64,000 nt of DNA from Micromonospora halotolerans. GTDB taxonomy: Bacteria > Actinomycetota > Actinomycetes > Mycobacteriales > Micromonosporaceae. The notes below the pieces were generated by a model. That model ran no database searches. It had not been told where the DNA came from and was given only the letters and a program-made list of their open reading frames with translations. This document shows, piece after piece, positions 49,504 through 56,516 of the stretch. Position 1 is the first letter of the stretch. Every line of letters begins with the position of its first letter. The position numbers and the translations under genes were made by a program. The stretch is taken from the NCBI RefSeq assembly GCF_032108445.1, contig NZ_CP134876.1, forward strand, positions 5,518,001 through 5,582,000. The letters are read 5' to 3'.

Positions 49504-51162
49504 TCAGGCGACCGGCTCGGGGGCGGCGCCCGCGCCGGTCTCGGTACGGGCTGCGGGGACGAGCCGGGGGTCGCCCGCGTCGGCGTGATAGTCGTCGGCG
49601 GTCGTGCCGTCGGTGCCGTCGGTCACCTTCGCGGCCCGCAGAATCAGCGTGCCCAGCACCGCGACCAGCAGGTTCACCAGTACGGCCACAAAGCCGACGT
49701 AGACCGTCCTGGTGGTGTCGAAGCCGAATTCTCCGAGGGAGAAGGCCGAGCCCCCGAAGTGCTGCCGGCCGTTCGCACCCGGGATCTGATAGAGCATCCA
49801 CATGCCCAGGCCCATCCCGGCGATCCACCCGGCGATCAGCGCGCCTCGGTGGAACCAGCGGGTGTAGAGGCCCAGCGCCACCGCGGGCAGCGTCTGCAGG
49901 ATGATGACCCCGCCGATCAACTGCAGGTCGATGGAGAATTGCGGGTCGAGGAAGACGATGCAGCCGACGGCACCGACCTTCACCACCAGTGAGGCGATCT
50001 TCGAGACGTTCGCCTCCTGGGCCGGGGAGGCGTCGCGCCGCAGATACTCCTTGTAGATGTTGCGGGTGAACAGGTTCGCCGCCGCGATCGACATGATCGC
50101 CGCCGGTACCAGGGCGCCGATCCCGATCGCGGCGAACGCGATCCCGGCGAACCACCCGGGGAACTGCTGGTCGAACAGGAGCGGCACGATGGTGTTGTTG
50201 TCCACCGAGCCCTCCTTGGCGCCTGGCAGCGGGGTTACCCCGGCCGCGATCGCCATGTAGCCGAGCAGTGCGATCAGCCCCAGGAGCAGGGTGTACGCGG
50301 GCAGCGCTGACATGTTCCGTCTGATCACGTCACGGTTCCGGCTGGCCAGCACGCCGGTCAGGCTGTGCGGATAGAGGAACAGCGCCAGGGCCGAGCCCAG
50401 CGCCAGGGTGATGTACTGCCACTGGTTGTTCGCATTGAGCAGGATCCCGTCACCCGGCGCGGGTGAGGCCTGAAACTTCGCGTCCGCTGCGTCGAAGATC
50501 TTTCCCCAGCCGCCCAACTTGTACGGGAGGTAGATGACCGTCACGAGGATCACGATGTAGATCAGAGAGTCCTTGACGAAGGCGATCAGCGCGGGCGCCC
50601 GCAGGCCGGACTGGTAGGTGTAGGCGGCCAGGATGGCGAAGGCGATGATGATGGGCAGATGCCGGGCGATGGTGCTCTCGCCGGTCACCCCCATCGTCTT
50701 GAGCACTGCCTCGATCCCGACAAGCTGGAGCGCGATGTACGGCATCGTGGCGGCGATGCCGGTGATTGCCACCAGCAGGGCCATCGTCGGCGAGCCGAAC
50801 CGGGTCCGAACGAAGTCGGCCGGAGTGACGAAGCCGTGTCGATGCGACACCGACCAGAGCCGGACCAGCACGAGGAAGACGATGGGATAGACGATGATTG
50901 TGTACGGCACGGCGAAGAACCCCGCCGCGCCGGCGCCGAAGAGCAGCGCCGGCACCGCGACGAACGTGTAGGCCGTGTAGAGGTCACCACCGACGAGGAA
51001 CCAGGTGATCCAGCCGCCGAAACTGCGCCCGCCCAGCCCCCACTCGTCGAGGTGTGCCATGTCCTTCGGCGCCCGCCAGCGCGCGGCAACGAACCCCATG
51101 GCGCTGACCAGGAGGAAGAGGAAGGTGAAGATGATGATTTCGGTGAGGTTGTCACGCCACAT
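49504..51162 (-). CDS. Sodium:solute symporter, monocarboxylate type (MctP-like)
   Basis: A 552-residue SSS-family transporter with about 13 membrane helices. Family features include 'WGLGGRSFGGWITWFLVGGD', 'AYTFVAVPALLFG', the Na-site region 'GIAATMPYIALQLVGIEAVLK', 'LALGSALALFLYPHSLTGVLAS' and 'GALVPAAIMSIAAANLFTRNIYKEYL'. This matches the MctP branch that takes up lactate, pyruvate or amino acids. The hydrophilic tail (about 515-552) is acidic and Ala-rich. A DUF3311 gene ends seven bases upstream on the same strand, the usual MctP partner arrangement. Confidence 0.9.
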   Translation of the reverse strand: MWRDNLTEIIIFTFLFLLVSAMGFVAARWRAPKDMAHLDEWGLGGRSFGGWITWFLVGGDLYTAYTFVAVPALLFGAGAAGFFAVPYTIIVYPIVFLVLVRLWSVSHRHGFVTPADFVRTRFGSPTMALLVAITGIAATMPYIALQLVGIEAVLKTMGVTGESTIARHLPIIIAFAILAAYTYQSGLRAPALIAFVKDSLIYIVILVTVIYLPYKLGGWGKIFDAADAKFQASPAPGDGILLNANNQWQYITLALGSALALFLYPHSLTGVLASRNRDVIRRNMSALPAYTLLLGLIALLGYMAIAAGVTPLPGAKEGSVDNNTIVPLLFDQQFPGWFAGIAFAAIGIGALVPAAIMSIAAANLFTRNIYKEYLRRDASPAQEANVSKIASLVVKVGAVGCIVFLDPQFSIDLQLIGGVIILQTLPAVALGLYTRWFHRGALIAGWIAGMGLGMWMLYQIPGANGRQHFGGSAFSLGEFGFDTTRTVYVGFVAVLVNLLVAVLGTLILRAAKVTDGTDGTTADDYHADAGDPRLVPAARTETGAGAAPEPVA

Positions 51163-51462: not shown

Positions 51463-51720
51463 TCAGTGCGGACCGGGGCGCCCGGTACGCCGGTGGGCCA
51501 GGTAGGCGCAGACCAGGCACGCTGCGGTGAAGGGGACCCACGCCAGCTGGTACCAGTGGAAGAAGGGCACACCGAAGAGTCGCGGTTCGGCGCGGGCGAA
51601 CACCGGCGTGGCCACCGCGCCCAGGACGGGCAGCGCCAGAGCGACCGCCTGTAGCCACGCCCAGGCGTGTGCAGGGCGTGCGCTCGGTGCCAGGACGTCG
51701 CCTTCCTCACCTGCGTCCAT
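51463..51720 (-). CDS. Second DUF3311-like small membrane protein
   Basis: ATG 51720 is chosen for its GAAGGGGAG site; an in-frame ATG at 51756 lacks one. The 85-residue product has two helices and the same core as its neighbour ('TPVFARAEPRLFGVPFFHWYQLAWV'), so it is a diverged DUF3311 paralogue. It lies just upstream of the first DUF3311 gene and is head-to-head with the second symporter gene at 51953. It could serve either transporter. The N-terminal cytoplasmic part is acidic. Confidence 0.8.
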   Translation of the reverse strand: MDAGEEGDVLAPSARPAHAWAWLQAVALALPVLGAVATPVFARAEPRLFGVPFFHWYQLAWVPFTAACLVCAYLAHRRTGRPGPH

Positions 51721-51905
51721 ACGCGTCTCCCCTTCACCGTGGCGCTTGATTCTCATGTTTCGGAGTGGTTAACTCTCGATCAACTTCTCTTGCTCTGCTG
51801 CGTTCCTACCTGCTGGTTCCCTCACCACCTCAGTTGCGGTCCGAACCCGAAAGGTTTACCCGCATCGGATGTGGACCCCGCCAGCCGCATGGGAGGAACC
51901 AGCAC

Positions 51906-51956
51906 ATGGCAGAGTTCGCGGTCCGCAGTCAGACCGAACGTGGGAAGCGGACATGA
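51906..51956 (+). CDS. Possible 16-residue leader peptide of the second symporter
   Basis: ATG 51906 follows GGAGG (51892-51896), the only good ribosome binding site in this leader. It encodes MAEFAVRSQTERGKRT and its stop overlaps the symporter ATG 51953 as ATGA. The symporter itself has no equally good site (GGGAAGCGG is near), so translation may be coupled through this peptide. The peptide is too short for family assignment. Confidence 0.4.
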   Translation: MAEFAVRSQTERGKRT

Positions 51957-53506
51957 CAGCGGCGGTAGCCGCGGTCGTCGTCCTGTCGGCGTCCGTGGTC
52001 GCCCTCGTGGCCCTCCGTGGCCGCGGTCGCCGCCCGCTCGCCGGGCGCGACCTGACCGGCTGGGCCTTGGCCGACCGCAGCCACGGGCATCTGATGACGT
52101 GGTGCATCCTGGGCGGCACGATCTACACCGCGTACACGTTCCTGGCCGTTCCTGGGCTGGTGTTCGGCTCCGGCGGCGTCGGCTTCTACGCTCTGACGTA
52201 CACGGTCGTGGTGTACGTGTTCGCCTTCATGGTCCTGCCACGACTGACCGGCATCGCGCGTACCCACGGCTACGTGACGGGGGCCGACTTCATCCGCGGC
52301 AGGTACGGCGCACCTGGTCTGGCGCTCGCGGTGGCAATCACCGGGATTCTGGCCACGATGCCGTACATCGCCCTGCAGTTGCTGGGCATCCGGGCGGTGC
52401 TCAGCGTGCTCGGGGTCGAGTCCGACGGTGTGGTGGGAGACCTGGTGCTCACCGTCGTGTTCGCGGTACTCGCCGTGTCGACCTACCGGCACGGTCTGCG
52501 GGCGCCCAGTGCCGTCTCCATCGGCAAGGCGATCCTGGTCACGGCGTCCGCCGTGTCGATCGCGGCGCTCGTGTGGACCCGGGTCGGTTCGCCGGGAGAG
52601 CTGTTCGCCGCGGCGGAGCAGACGATCACCGCGCGGGACAGCCGATTGAGCGTCGTGCTGGACCCGGCGCTGGGACCCGCGTACGTGTCGTTGGCACTGG
52701 GGTCAGCTCTGGCGCTGTTCGCGTTTCCGCACGTGCAGATGGTCGCTTTCTCAGCCCGCACCGACGACGTCGTTCGGCGGTCGACGGTGACGCTGCTCGG
52801 TTGGACCGGCCTGCTCGGCGTGTTCGCCGTGTTCGGTGTGGCCGCGCTCGCCTCGAACGTCGTGCCCCCTCCGGGACGGGCCGACCTCGCCGTACCGATG
52901 CTGGTGCAGGAGCTGGCACCAGCATGGCTGGCGGGGGCCGTGCTGGGCGCCCTGGTGGTGGCGGCGCTGGTACCGGCCGCCGTCATGTCGATCGGGGCTT
53001 CGGCCCTGTTCGCCCGCAACGTGTATGTGGAGTACGTCAACCCGACCGCCACCGCGGAGCAGGAGACCAGGGTGGCCCGGGTCGTGTCGCTGCTCGTGAA
53101 GCTTGGCGCCTTGGGCTTTGCCATGGGCCTGCACGATCAGAACGCCATCAACCTTCACCTGCTGGGCGCGGTGTGGGTCCTGCAGACGTTGCCGGCTCTC
53201 GTCCTCGGCCTGGCACGCCGGGCGCCGCATCGGTTCGCGCTGCTGACCGGCTGGTTCGCCGGGATGGTCGCGGGCACTGCGATGGTCGCCCACGGCGGCT
53301 TCTCACCAACGGTGCTGGTGTCCCTCGGGCCGGTCAAAACGCAGCTGTACGCGGGGCTGCTCGGGCTCGCGGTCAACCTTGCCGTCGTCGTCGTGGCCGG
53401 GTTGCTGCTGCGCCGGTGGGGACCCGGCCGAGGGCTCGATCGGACGGTGGACCGACGAAATACGCGGAGGCGGCCGGCGATCGTCTCGCGCTCGGTGCCG
53501 TCATGA
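51953..53506 (+). CDS. Sodium:solute symporter, second paralogue
   Basis: ATG 51953 gives 517 residues; the open frame upstream of it is leader. It has about 13 membrane helices and the same marker segments as the MctP-like protein on the other strand: 'WCILGGTIYTAYTFLAVPGLVFG', 'GILATMPYIALQLLGIRAVL', 'LALGSALALFAFPHVQMVAF' and 'ALVPAAVMSIGASALFARNVYVEYV'. The two therefore look like diverged paralogues. The substrate is likely a small carboxylate or amino acid. Its stop overlaps the sigma factor start (ATGA), an unusual coupling of a transporter to a sigma factor. Confidence 0.88.
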   Translation: MTAAVAAVVVLSASVVALVALRGRGRRPLAGRDLTGWALADRSHGHLMTWCILGGTIYTAYTFLAVPGLVFGSGGVGFYALTYTVVVYVFAFMVLPRLTGIARTHGYVTGADFIRGRYGAPGLALAVAITGILATMPYIALQLLGIRAVLSVLGVESDGVVGDLVLTVVFAVLAVSTYRHGLRAPSAVSIGKAILVTASAVSIAALVWTRVGSPGELFAAAEQTITARDSRLSVVLDPALGPAYVSLALGSALALFAFPHVQMVAFSARTDDVVRRSTVTLLGWTGLLGVFAVFGVAALASNVVPPPGRADLAVPMLVQELAPAWLAGAVLGALVVAALVPAAVMSIGASALFARNVYVEYVNPTATAEQETRVARVVSLLVKLGALGFAMGLHDQNAINLHLLGAVWVLQTLPALVLGLARRAPHRFALLTGWFAGMVAGTAMVAHGGFSPTVLVSLGPVKTQLYAGLLGLAVNLAVVVVAGLLLRRWGPGRGLDRTVDRRNTRRRPAIVSRSVPS

Positions 53507-54132
53507 ACCTCGACCGACCGCAGCGCCCCGGTACCTTGGACCGTCGCGACAAGGATGCGCGATCCGAGATCGTCGGTCCTGACCCCGACCGCTCGCTGGC
53601 GGAGGGACCCGGCCTCGATCTCCGCGATGTGGAGCGCGAAGCCGCGATGGTCGCCCTTTTCGATGGACTGCACGCCCAACTCGTCCGCCTTGCCTTCCTG
53701 CTCGGTGCTGACCACGACGCCGAGGACCTCGTCTCGGAGGCGTTCTGCGAGCTGCATCGACGCTGGTACCGGCTGCGCGATCCGGCGGCGGCACCGCAAT
53801 ACCTGAGGTCGATAGTCTGTAACCTGACTCGTATGCACATCCGGCATCTGCAGGTGCGTCGCAGCCATGCCGGGGACGAGCTGCCTCCCGGCCAGGCCGG
53901 CGTCGTTGACTCGGCGGAATCGTCCGTGCTGCTCAGAGAGGATCAGCGAGCGGTGGTCGTGGCGCTGCGGCAACTGCCGGTGCGCCAGCGCGAGGCGCTG
54001 GTGCTGCGCTACTGGCTGGATCTGAAGGAAGCCGACATCGCCGGCGCCATGGGCATCAGCACCGGCGCGGTGAAGTCGCACATCTTCCGCGGCATGACCG
54101 CCCTGGCCGCGCTCATGGGCGCATCTCGATGA
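53503..54132 (+). CDS. ECF-family RNA polymerase sigma factor
   Basis: 209 residues from ATG 53503, overlapping the symporter stop. After an N-terminal extension of about 50 residues comes region 2 ('HAQLVRLAFLLGADHDAEDL', 'AFCELHRRWYRLRDPAAAPQYLRSIVCN') and, after a linker, region 4 ('LPVRQREALVLRYWLDLKEADIAGAMGIS', 'GAVKSHIFRGMTALAALM'). There is no extra C-terminal domain. It resembles SigE-like ECF factors of actinomycetes. The gene after it, coding for a small membrane protein, overlaps its stop and may be its anti-sigma factor. Confidence 0.92.
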   Translation: MNLDRPQRPGTLDRRDKDARSEIVGPDPDRSLAEGPGLDLRDVEREAAMVALFDGLHAQLVRLAFLLGADHDAEDLVSEAFCELHRRWYRLRDPAAAPQYLRSIVCNLTRMHIRHLQVRRSHAGDELPPGQAGVVDSAESSVLLREDQRAVVVALRQLPVRQREALVLRYWLDLKEADIAGAMGISTGAVKSHIFRGMTALAALMGASR

Positions 54133-54416
54133 GTATCGACGAGACCGAGACCCGGTTGCGGGACACCCTCCAGGTTCTGGCAACCACCGCGGTCCCCTCC
54201 CCGGACGCGTACGCCAACGCCCGGGGCGAATGGCAGCGGCGGGAACGGCGCCGGCGGCTCGTCACCGTCATCCTGGCTCTGTTGCTGGTCGGCCTGGCCG
54301 ATGTGGTCGGGCTGTGGGCGCTCAGCAACCACCACCACGACGAGCCGACGCGGTACGACCAGCCGGTGGACCACGGCAACGAGGTTCGGCTCGACAGCGT
54401 CGTGATCATTCCCTGA
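54129..54416 (+). CDS. Small single-pass membrane protein, candidate anti-sigma factor
   Basis: 95 residues from ATG 54129, coupled to the sigma gene by ATGA. The N-terminal half is cytoplasmic and helical ('ETETRLRDTLQVLATT', 'YANARGEWQRRERRRR'). One membrane helix follows (about 45-66: VTVILALLLVGLADVVGLWAL), then a His/Asp-rich outer tail of about 30 residues beginning 'SNHHHDEPTRYDQ'. It lacks the zinc-binding HxxxCxxC motif of ZAS anti-sigmas. Position and topology still fit a membrane anti-sigma or sensor; a perfect hairpin ends the operon 46 bases later. Confidence 0.75.
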   Translation: MSIDETETRLRDTLQVLATTAVPSPDAYANARGEWQRRERRRRLVTVILALLLVGLADVVGLWALSNHHHDEPTRYDQPVDHGNEVRLDSVVIIP

Positions 54417-54516: not shown

Positions 54517-55962
54517 TCAGGCCATCTTGCCGGACAGTTTCCAGGCCGCGTCGACCAGCCGGTCGACGTCCTTGCTCTGGTGGAACAGGTGCGTGGAGAT
54601 GCGGACGGGGCGGTGCGGCTGGGCCGATCCGATGACCGGGAAGTCGCTGTTGCGGATGGTGATTCCGTACTCGTCGCGCATCCGCGCGACGAACTCGGCC
54701 GACTTCTCCGCGTTGAGCACGTCGGTCCGATTGCGGAACGGGTTGAACGAGGTCAGGGCGCAGACCAGGCGCGGGTCGTCCTTCGGGGAGTACAACGATC
54801 CGACCCCCCACCGCTCGACGACGAGGTCCTTGAGGTACGACGACAGGCCGACGACGTGGTCCTCGATGCGCTGCCGTCCGATGCGGTCCCACACCCCGCA
54901 GACCGTCCTGACCCCCTCGTTCAAGGCAATGCTGCCGTTGCCGACGGACTGGAGGTAGGTGCCGATGTTGTAGCTTGCCGTGTCGGTCGACGAGCGGGGC
55001 GGTACGCCGCCTTCCTGCGGATAGCTGCTGGACACGACCGGCCAGAACTCGGGCAGGGGGTTCGGGTTGTACTGGGACAAGACCTTGTTGCGGATGTACA
55101 GCACGCCGGTTCCTCCCGGACCGCACTGCCACTTGGCGGCGGAGCCGGCAAGGAAGTCCACGCCAAGCTCGTGGAAGCTGTAGTTCATCATCCCGGGGAT
55201 GTGGGCCCCGTCCACAACGCTGATCAGTCCGTGTTCCTGCGCGAGCTTGGCCAGCATCTGGATGGGCAGCATCGTCCCGGTCTTGTACGTCGGGGCGGAG
55301 AACAGCAGGACCTTGGTCCTGGCCGTGATCGCTCGCCGGAACAGCTCCACATAGTCCTCGGCCCGCTGGTCGTTGCCCACGGGCAGGGCCACCTTCCGGA
55401 TGACCACGCCGTGTCGATCCCGCGCCAGGGCCATCGGGACGAGGCCGCCTCCGTGCTCGTGATTGGTCGTCAGGATCTCGTCACCCGCGCGCAGATTCAA
55501 CCCGGCGATGATCTTCGACATGCCGTCACTGGTGTTATGCGAGATCACGAGCTCGTCCACGTCGCAGCCGTACCCACGAGCCGCGACGGCGCGGACGTCG
55601 GCGAAGTCGCTGTAGGCGGAGAGGGCGTCTCGGGCGACCTCTCGATTTGTCTTGTCCAGAGCGTCAAGGACCTCGCGGGGTGGGGAGCCGACCGTCCCCA
55701 CGTTCATGAAGAGGACCTTCTTGTCGAGGGTGAACAGCTTCTCGACCTGGCGCCAGAAGTTCGCGTCGTTCGCGTGCGGCAACGACGACGATCCGGCCAC
55801 GGTCAACGGGGCTGCCGTCACGGGAGAGGCGGCGGCGAAATTCAACCCGGCAGCACCCGCGACGGCGGCGCCCGCGCCGGCGCCCATGAACTGGAGAAGG
55901 CCTCGACGCGAAAGGCCCTTGGGCGGCATGTCCCCAGGGACTGGGGCCTTGGTGTTCAACAC
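54517..55962 (-). CDS. Tat-exported class V aminotransferase-fold PLP enzyme
   Basis: GTG 55962 is preceded by GAAGGGGG at eight bases; a TTG at 55992 is the less likely alternative. The 481-residue product has a Tat signal peptide ('LSRRGLLQFMGAGAGAAVAG', Arg19-Arg20) cleaved near 'ASPVTAAP'. The mature part is a class V aminotransferase/CefD (isopenicillin N epimerase)-like enzyme: 'VGTVGSPPREVLDAL', 'HNTSDGMSKIIAGL', 'NHEHGG', 'VVDGAHIPGM' with the pyridine-binding Asp and the PLP Lys277 in 'LAGSAAKWQCGPGGTGVLYI'. Tat export fits a protein folded with its cofactor. It follows the exported RidA gene in an operon. Confidence 0.88.
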   Translation of the reverse strand: MLNTKAPVPGDMPPKGLSRRGLLQFMGAGAGAAVAGAAGLNFAAASPVTAAPLTVAGSSSLPHANDANFWRQVEKLFTLDKKVLFMNVGTVGSPPREVLDALDKTNREVARDALSAYSDFADVRAVAARGYGCDVDELVISHNTSDGMSKIIAGLNLRAGDEILTTNHEHGGGLVPMALARDRHGVVIRKVALPVGNDQRAEDYVELFRRAITARTKVLLFSAPTYKTGTMLPIQMLAKLAQEHGLISVVDGAHIPGMMNYSFHELGVDFLAGSAAKWQCGPGGTGVLYIRNKVLSQYNPNPLPEFWPVVSSSYPQEGGVPPRSSTDTASYNIGTYLQSVGNGSIALNEGVRTVCGVWDRIGRQRIEDHVVGLSSYLKDLVVERWGVGSLYSPKDDPRLVCALTSFNPFRNRTDVLNAEKSAEFVARMRDEYGITIRNSDFPVIGSAQPHRPVRISTHLFHQSKDVDRLVDAAWKLSGKMA

Positions 55963-55988
55963 AGTAGTGTCCCCCTTCTTTGGTGAAG

Positions 55989-56516
55989 TCAACGCACCGC
56001 GATTGCGGAGATCTCGACCTTGGCGTCCTGCGGCACCCGTGCCACCTGAACAGTGGCCCGGGCCGGCGGCTTACTGCCGAAGAACTCGGCGTACGCGGTG
56101 TTGAAGCGGGCGAATTCATTGAGGTCTGCCACATAGACCGTGGTGCTGACGACGTTGTCCAGGGTCATTCCACCGGCCCGCAGCACCGCATCGAGGTTCC
56201 TCAGGACCTGGCGGGTCTGGTCCTCGATGGACGCGCCGGCCAGGAGCTTGTTCGTGACCGGGTCGATGGGAAGCTGGCCGGACAGGTACAGGGCGTCTCC
56301 CACAGCTATGGCCTGGGAGTACGGACCTATCGCGGCTGGGGCGTCCGGCGACGTCACCACCCGGTGACGCTTGCCACCGTTCTTCTGCTCGCTGGCGTTG
56401 GCGGCTGGTTCGTGTCCTGTGATGACGGCACCGGCTGTGCCAGCCAGCGCGCAGGCGAGAACTGCGGCAACCAGGCGAGTCCGTCGAAATCCGACAATGG
56501 AAAGTCTAGGAGACAC
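55989..56516 (-). CDS. Exported RidA (YjgF/YER057c/UK114) family protein
   Basis: 175 residues from GTG 56516. The first 42 residues are an export signal ('GFRRTRLVAAVLACALAGTAG', cleavage near 'AANASEQ'); the paired Arg could even allow Tat export. The rest is a normal RidA domain: 'DAPAAIGPYSQAIAVGDALYLSGQLPIDP', 'QVLRNLDAVLRAGGMTLDNVV', 'FARFNTAYAEFFG', with the ligand-binding Arg in 'PPARATVQVARVP' and 'VEISAIAVR'. RidA proteins hydrolyse reactive imines/enamines made by PLP enzymes, normally in the cytoplasm. Its gene ends 26 bases before that of an exported PLP enzyme, suggesting that the two work together outside the membrane. Confidence 0.9.
   Translation of the reverse strand: MSPRLSIVGFRRTRLVAAVLACALAGTAGAVITGHEPAANASEQKNGGKRHRVVTSPDAPAAIGPYSQAIAVGDALYLSGQLPIDPVTNKLLAGASIEDQTRQVLRNLDAVLRAGGMTLDNVVSTTVYVADLNEFARFNTAYAEFFGSKPPARATVQVARVPQDAKVEISAIAVR

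Follow-up and report, generated by a model that had tools for sequence, protein, structure and literature searches.

A conserved gene pair of leader-bearing RidA and Tat-signal-bearing PLP enzyme with a possible role outside the cytoplasmic membrane

Does an exported PLP enzyme, the cofactor of which is presumably not renewable, need an exported RidA to stay active? This question is raised by two adjacent genes of Micromonospora halotolerans, analyzed here within a 64,000-nucleotide stretch of the genome (the window). The RidA story has been built on cytoplasmic PLP enzymes, and the only periplasmic PLP chemistry known to us is that of two pyoverdine enzymes.

Two adjacent genes with predicted export signals

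The pair comprises the following features.

55989 to 56516, minus strand: predicted RidA (Rid family enamine/imine deaminase), 175 aa, GTG start; TIGR00004, PF01042
56394 to 56516, minus strand: Sec-like export leader of RidA, about 41 aa, from hydropathy, shuffles, and sequence reading; the ANA-S cleavage site is guessed
54517 to 55962, minus strand: class V (fold type I) PLP enzyme, 481 aa; PF00266, PLP lysine
55810 to 55962, minus strand: Tat signal of the PLP enzyme, SRRGLLQF plus a hydrophobic stretch, from the sequence; end approximate

The RidA scores 163.4 bits against TIGR00004, passing the cutoff of 106.25, and 140.1 bits against PF01042; RidAs from two other loci reach 131.2 (L023) and 168.9 (L027) bits against TIGR00004. 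It has a catalytic-type Arg153 (codon 56058-56060) and, near the C-terminus, Glu168, which we take to be the Rid active-site residues R105 and E120 of E. coli numbering. The leader is laid out as FRRTR, then LVAAVLACALAGTAGAVITG, then ANA-S. Its best 12-residue hydropathy is 2.57, a value reached by 62 of 20,000 residue shuffles of the leader, and values of 2.5 or more occur in 9 of the 221 window ORFs of at least 100 aa. The original prediction that this RidA has an export signal is thus borne out by a hydrophobic leader that is Sec-like, not Tat-type. All leaders, in the window and in relatives, were judged by motif and hydropathy. Because a cysteine lies inside the leader (VLAC), the protein is possibly a lipoprotein. 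In-frame GTG codons just ahead of the core make a second, leaderless form alongside the exported one possible.

The listed ORF of the PLP enzyme begins at TTG 55992; a better start is GTG 55962, behind AAGAAGGGGG, which gives 481 aa, as in homologue P0001. PF00266 matches with 102.5 bits, and the Pfam matches are confined to broad fold-type-I models (PF00266, PF01053, and PF00155). The PLP lysine is in AAKWQCGPGGTG (codon 55132-55134). With SRRGLLQF at the N-terminus, the second gene proved to have the classic Tat signal and PLP lysine ascribed to it earlier. Judged from sequence, then, both window proteins carry export signals. Both genes are on the minus strand with RidA first, and co-transcription is likely because the gap between them is 26 bp.

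Conservation of the pair and exchange of its RidA

An alignment of 40 homologues of the enzyme led to 55 loci in named genomes, 17 from Actinomycetota and 38 from Pseudomonadota. A RidA profile search placed a RidA directly beside the enzyme in 51 of these loci, always on the same strand (51/51), upstream of the enzyme in 47 and downstream in four. The remaining four are L021, at a contig edge, and L010, L037, and L059, in the fetched stretches of which RidA was not found, tblastn included. RidA is in pieces in L011 and L054, and neither is among the 49 that could be read in one piece and scored. In all 49 the leader is hydrophobic, its best 12-residue hydropathy ranging from 1.85 to 2.87, and the Arg/Glu motif is retained. 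Among the enzymes, 50 of 55 have a credible Tat motif, and the five exceptions are broken or partial or lie at a contig edge; the motif counts leave out L018, where the motif sits in the core of a broken ORF. The RR motif is present in 112 of the best 120 enzyme homologues listed, which include Tat-bearing proteins of about 52-62% identity (P0059-P0120), many of them metagenomic. A lipobox is found near the core in 28 of 51 RidAs and after the Tat motif in 30 of 55 enzymes. Both proteins have one in 26 loci, all from Pseudomonadota, where RidA and enzyme may be anchored to the same membrane.

The check for co-occurrence therefore showed the pairing to be conserved across two phyla, in 51 of 55 loci, with a leader on every RidA that could be read in one piece. 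Orthologous pairs in which one partner alone carries a signal would have spoken against the idea, and none was seen among pairs readable in one piece. The accompanying statement that RidA proteins are almost always cytoplasmic goes too far for this branch, in which 110 of the best 120 homologues listed are hydrophobically extended, so an exported RidA is not exceptional here. As read from these sequences, the distinctive feature is the conserved pairing and not the export of RidA itself. That the two genes form a conserved exported module is, in our judgment, almost certain. Many of the leader-bearing RidAs among the 120 listed (P0121-P0240) are proteins of about 150 aa, and some are labeled Gammaproteobacteria.

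Leaderless homologues of the enzyme, at about 45% identity, occur in 15 other genomes of the genus (L062-L076) and in five more within the class or order. RidA was not found in the roughly 1.5 kb on each side of these genes in any of the 20 genomes, nor was a Tat motif with a hydrophobic core, the highest hydropathy being 1.38. RidA thus adjoins the exported form in 51 of 54 informative loci versus 0 of 20 for the leaderless form (Fisher p = 3e-15, which is overstated because the rows share ancestry). One leaderless homologue, L065, has two internal stops. The exported form is present in 2 of 151 genomes of the genus, the second belonging to the same species. Homologues occur in 2 of 394 class genomes and 11 of 397 order genomes, and those beyond the window genome are of the leaderless, about 45% type only. 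As these surveys show, the exported form is rare and patchy. The G+C content in 1-kb steps is 66-71% from 48 to 57 kb of the window and 72-78% in the flanks (46-48 and 57-63 kb), and the GC3 of RidA is 0.76 versus 0.95 for the next upstream gene. Together with the presence in 2 of 151 genus genomes, this dip suggests that the low-G+C block, which includes the transporter and sigma factor genes described below, was likely acquired horizontally.

Trees of the two proteins differ in ways that bear on the opening question. The RidA tree was built without L011, L018, L054, L057, L058, and L059 (L010, L021, and L037 have no RidA), and the enzyme tree without L018, L054, L058, and L059, with five leaderless homologues as the outgroup. 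The RidA tree has few columns, and its internal forks are often weak. The enzymes of L027, L043, and L056 nest within a 21-row clade (support 100/99), the other 18 members of which have an upstream, lipoprotein-type RidA. The RidAs of these three loci are downstream and Sec-type; in the RidA tree a 100/100 split separates them from those of the other 18, and they adjoin leader-bearing RidAs of other bacteria. A second case is that of two Saccharopolyspora loci (L006 and L015), where the enzymes are sisters (94/80, not strong) and the RidAs are not; RidA precedes the enzyme in one locus and follows it in the other. Such exchanges, in which the new RidA is again an exported one, argue that the enzyme depends on an exported RidA.

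Neighboring transport and regulatory genes

Five further features of the window lie near the pair.

54129 to 54416, plus strand: 95-aa single-TM protein with no Pfam or NCBIfam match; in 12/17 actinobacterial loci
53503 to 54132, plus strand: SigE-type ECF sigma factor; TIGR02983 127.9 bits (cutoff 141.55), PF08281; in 12/17 actinobacterial loci
51953 to 53506, plus strand: divergent MctP-like sodium/solute symporter (MctP-B); NF046076 455 bits (cutoff 625)
51463 to 51756, minus strand: DUF3311 small membrane protein upstream of MctP-A; PF11755 51.7 bits; in 6/55 loci at E 1e-3
49504 to 51162, minus strand: MctP monocarboxylate uptake permease (MctP-A); NF046076 765.8 bits (cutoff 625)

The genes for the 95-aa protein, the sigma factor, and MctP-B are convergent to the pair, and the 95-aa protein is possibly a membrane partner, though an unusual one, of the sigma factor. 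Two amino-acid or monocarboxylate symporters had been noted nearby. Both are MctP-like; MctP-A qualifies as a family member, whereas MctP-B is divergent.

In Actinomycetota, 11 of 17 loci have a divergent MctP next to the pair and 12 have CstA, and one or the other is present in 15; the exceptions are L010, where the contig ends, and L049. In 12 of 16 genomes, CstA lies no more than about 4 kb from the enzyme, with about 0.05 expected by chance for 7 kb; CstA was not found in the window's genome. The divergent MctP is beside the enzyme in 10 of the 16, one being a partial match, and an MctP profile search of these genomes returned no other match at 409-455 bits. Two of the CstA neighbors score 853 and 804 bits, below the 1188-bit cutoff of NF011590, and clearly match PF02554. 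The accessible text of PMC5847655 describes E. coli CstA as importing pyruvate, and that of PMC9100948 describes Rhizobium MctP as taking up pyruvate, lactate, and alanine.

In Pseudomonadota, a divergent two-component system adjoins the pair in 21 of 38 loci, which are exactly the 21-row enzyme clade; in the other 17, no searched partner gene was found. The kinase has an sCache_2 sensor domain (two kinases examined). MctS is the best match of all six Burkholderiales kinases searched (277-389 bits, under the NF052443 cutoff of 700), and MctR is the best match of the one regulator searched (220 bits, under the NF052445 cutoff of 300). MctS and MctR regulate mctP in Rhizobium, according to the accessible part of PMC9100948. 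The regulator beside CstA in Microbacterium is most like BtsR (140 bits against 246), and BtsS is described as a pyruvate sensor in PMC10653868. LytS/LytTR genes beside Delftia loci were rejected as BtsSR; they occur mainly in close relatives and were taken as unrelated. By ORF reading, such genes in L023 sit between the enzyme and an argininosuccinate-lyase-like gene.

Small carboxylates are the ligands of the nearest solved relatives of the MctS-like sensor, and one of these relatives holds pyruvate in its site. In alignment, all 21 kinases (L022-L056; e.g., L022, 7487-8914) keep the tyrosine that touches the keto group of pyruvate, and in all 21 the carboxylate-binding histidine is replaced by Asp or Asn. 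This replacement suggests a ligand that bears an amino group, and the sensor may thus respond to an amino acid and not to pyruvate. Several different neighboring parts for transport and regulation, in two phyla, are indicative of pyruvate-like acids, although most of their matches fall short of equivalog cutoffs.

Possible function of the pair

What chemistry could link these parts? We give about even weight to the proposal that RidA and the PLP enzyme are a two-part module outside the cytoplasmic membrane that makes a 2-oxo acid for uptake. The signal and the PvdN precedent suggest that the PLP enzyme would fold with its cofactor in the cytoplasm and then be exported by the Tat route. Once outside, it would act on an amino acid or amino-acid conjugate and release a reactive enamine or imine, most likely 2-aminoacrylate formed by β-elimination as in C-S lyases. 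The co-exported RidA would hydrolyze this species to a 2-oxo acid and ammonia and would thereby shield the PLP of the enzyme, for which there is presumably no fresh supply outside. MctP- or CstA-type transporters would import the resulting 2-oxo acid, which is probably pyruvate, under the control of regulators of monocarboxylate type. Counting against this scheme, all transporter and regulator matches except MctP-A fall under equivalog cutoffs, the MctS-like sensor has lost the carboxylate-binding histidine and so may not sense pyruvate, 17 of 38 proteobacterial loci yielded no searched partner gene, and no RidA was found in L010, L037, and L059. The tie between C-DES and SufS in structural score also weighs against it. 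That the product is a 2-oxo acid seems somewhat probable. Our best guess is β-elimination to 2-aminoacrylate, which agrees with RidA, the C-DES-like fold, and uptake of pyruvate type; β-elimination with cofactor protection is a tentative assignment that we hold at somewhat short of even. The accessible text of PMC12172467 gives 2-aminoacrylate a lifetime of under 3 s in water and states that it nevertheless inactivates PLP enzymes. Because of this rapid decay, catalysis by RidA may be dispensable for flux; an exported enzyme would gain most from an adjacent RidA because its PLP presumably cannot be replaced.

The fullest version, which we regard as possible but doubtful, is an extracytoplasmic 2-aminoacrylate economy. 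An exported PLP β-lyase would turn amino acids or conjugates outside the cell into pyruvate by deamination, its PLP would be guarded by a co-exported RidA, and MctP/CstA-type importers with MctSR- or BtsR-like regulators would complete the pathway. Exported RidAs would then have a defined job, and a different exported RidA would have been recruited to the same enzyme lineage on at least two separate occasions. The frequent placement of the pair beside uptake and sensing genes for pyruvate-like acids suggests an undescribed route for breaking down amino compounds outside the cell membrane. More generally, the conserved exported pair would move enamine chemistry to the outer side of the membrane, along with its detoxification and the protection of the cofactor, and would assign a function to some of the many leader-bearing RidAs.

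The components themselves are of known kinds: RidA, class V PLP enzymes, and Tat-exported PLP enzymes have been described, and leader-bearing RidAs are common. The accessible open-license literature yielded neither an account of a RidA that is exported and paired with a PLP enzyme nor a paper joining isopenicillin N epimerase and RidA, and the terms "signal peptide" and "periplasm" are absent from the text of a Rid survey (PMC4433059). The conserved exported pair, together with the transport and regulation genes beside it, is undescribed in the searchable open-license literature. In the accessible accounts, Salmonella RidA with the 2-aminoacrylate-producing enzyme IlvA likewise involves a Rid protein with the Arg/Glu motif that acts on enamines of PLP enzymes; it is cytoplasmic there, whereas the present RidA is predicted to be exported and is gene-paired with one exported enzyme. 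Families related to rhizobial MctP and MctS/MctR, CstA, and BtsS/BtsR adjoin the present pair. Those systems import or sense ready-made pyruvate or other acids, whereas here they stand beside a predicted extracytoplasmic producer.

Alternatively, the PLP enzyme could, like PvdN and PtaA with pyoverdine, tailor a secreted metabolite or a molecule of the envelope, with RidA hydrolyzing the imine and the transport genes being incidental. We consider this unlikely, although it is the strongest of the alternatives. The closest solved fold and the closest NCBIfam model (NF051467) are both PvdN; the earlier label "CefD-like" is no more than a public annotation. The Tat motif on a class V PLP fold, from which export is predicted, is a PvdN-type trait. 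As the accessible text of PMC6206403 describes, PvdN and PtaA both use PLP, are exported by Tat, and act in the periplasm to tailor pyoverdine. However, the enzyme passes no NCBIfam cutoff among the best 25 of 40 families listed, and membership in PvdN was rejected at 105.3 bits, far under the cutoff of 650. The conserved neighbors found were transporters and regulators rather than biosynthetic genes; no pyoverdine genes were recognized in the present loci, and the enzyme has an exported RidA partner here, whereas the accessible text of PMC6206403 does not describe PvdN as needing RidA. The same text describes PtaA as a normal transaminase with a pyoverdine substrate, a comparison made by description.

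A somewhat less likely reading is sulfur scavenging: the exported enzyme, as a desulfurase or C-S lyase, would release sulfur from cystine or thioethers and leave pyruvate as waste. After PvdN, the closest folds are the C-DES cystine lyase and SufS, with tied structural scores, and the fold agrees with that of C-DES-like C-S β-lyases. Desulfurases have a catalytic cysteine in a C-terminal loop, but no conserved C-terminal cysteine was found in the present family, no column beyond 404 having Cys in at least four of the 40 aligned rows. No sulfur-uptake gene was recognized among the conserved neighbors. SufS membership (TIGR01979) was rejected at 98.8 bits against a cutoff of 475.1. The cystine C-S lyase C-DES of Synechocystis is cytoplasmic, and we know of no RidA partner for it; the present enzyme bears a Tat signal and has such a partner.

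It is improbable that the exported RidA has another job altogether, such as a chaperone-like or binding role, with the linkage reflecting co-regulation and not imine chemistry. The leaders in 110 of the best 120 RidA homologues listed, many from organisms in which the enzyme was not searched for, do imply uses beyond the pair. However, the invariant Arg/Glu motif (49/49), the lack of RidA beside leaderless homologues, and the partner swaps all favor the enzyme-linked role. Least likely is that RidA starts at an internal GTG and is cytoplasmic, its leader being a start-site artifact: in-frame GTGs precede the core and mark the start of the listed proteins P0169 (Wenjunlia, 123 aa) and P0174 (Streptomyces boninensis, 124 aa), but the Wenjunlia DNA (L009) has an upstream in-frame start with a leader, leaders recur in 49/49 readable loci, and a lipobox is present in 28/51.

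Start-site calls may hide this system from localization surveys. An upstream start was checked in the DNA for Wenjunlia and for Microtetraspora (L007). The public records P0008, P0010, P0169, and P0174 start past the likely start, so that the leader is lost.
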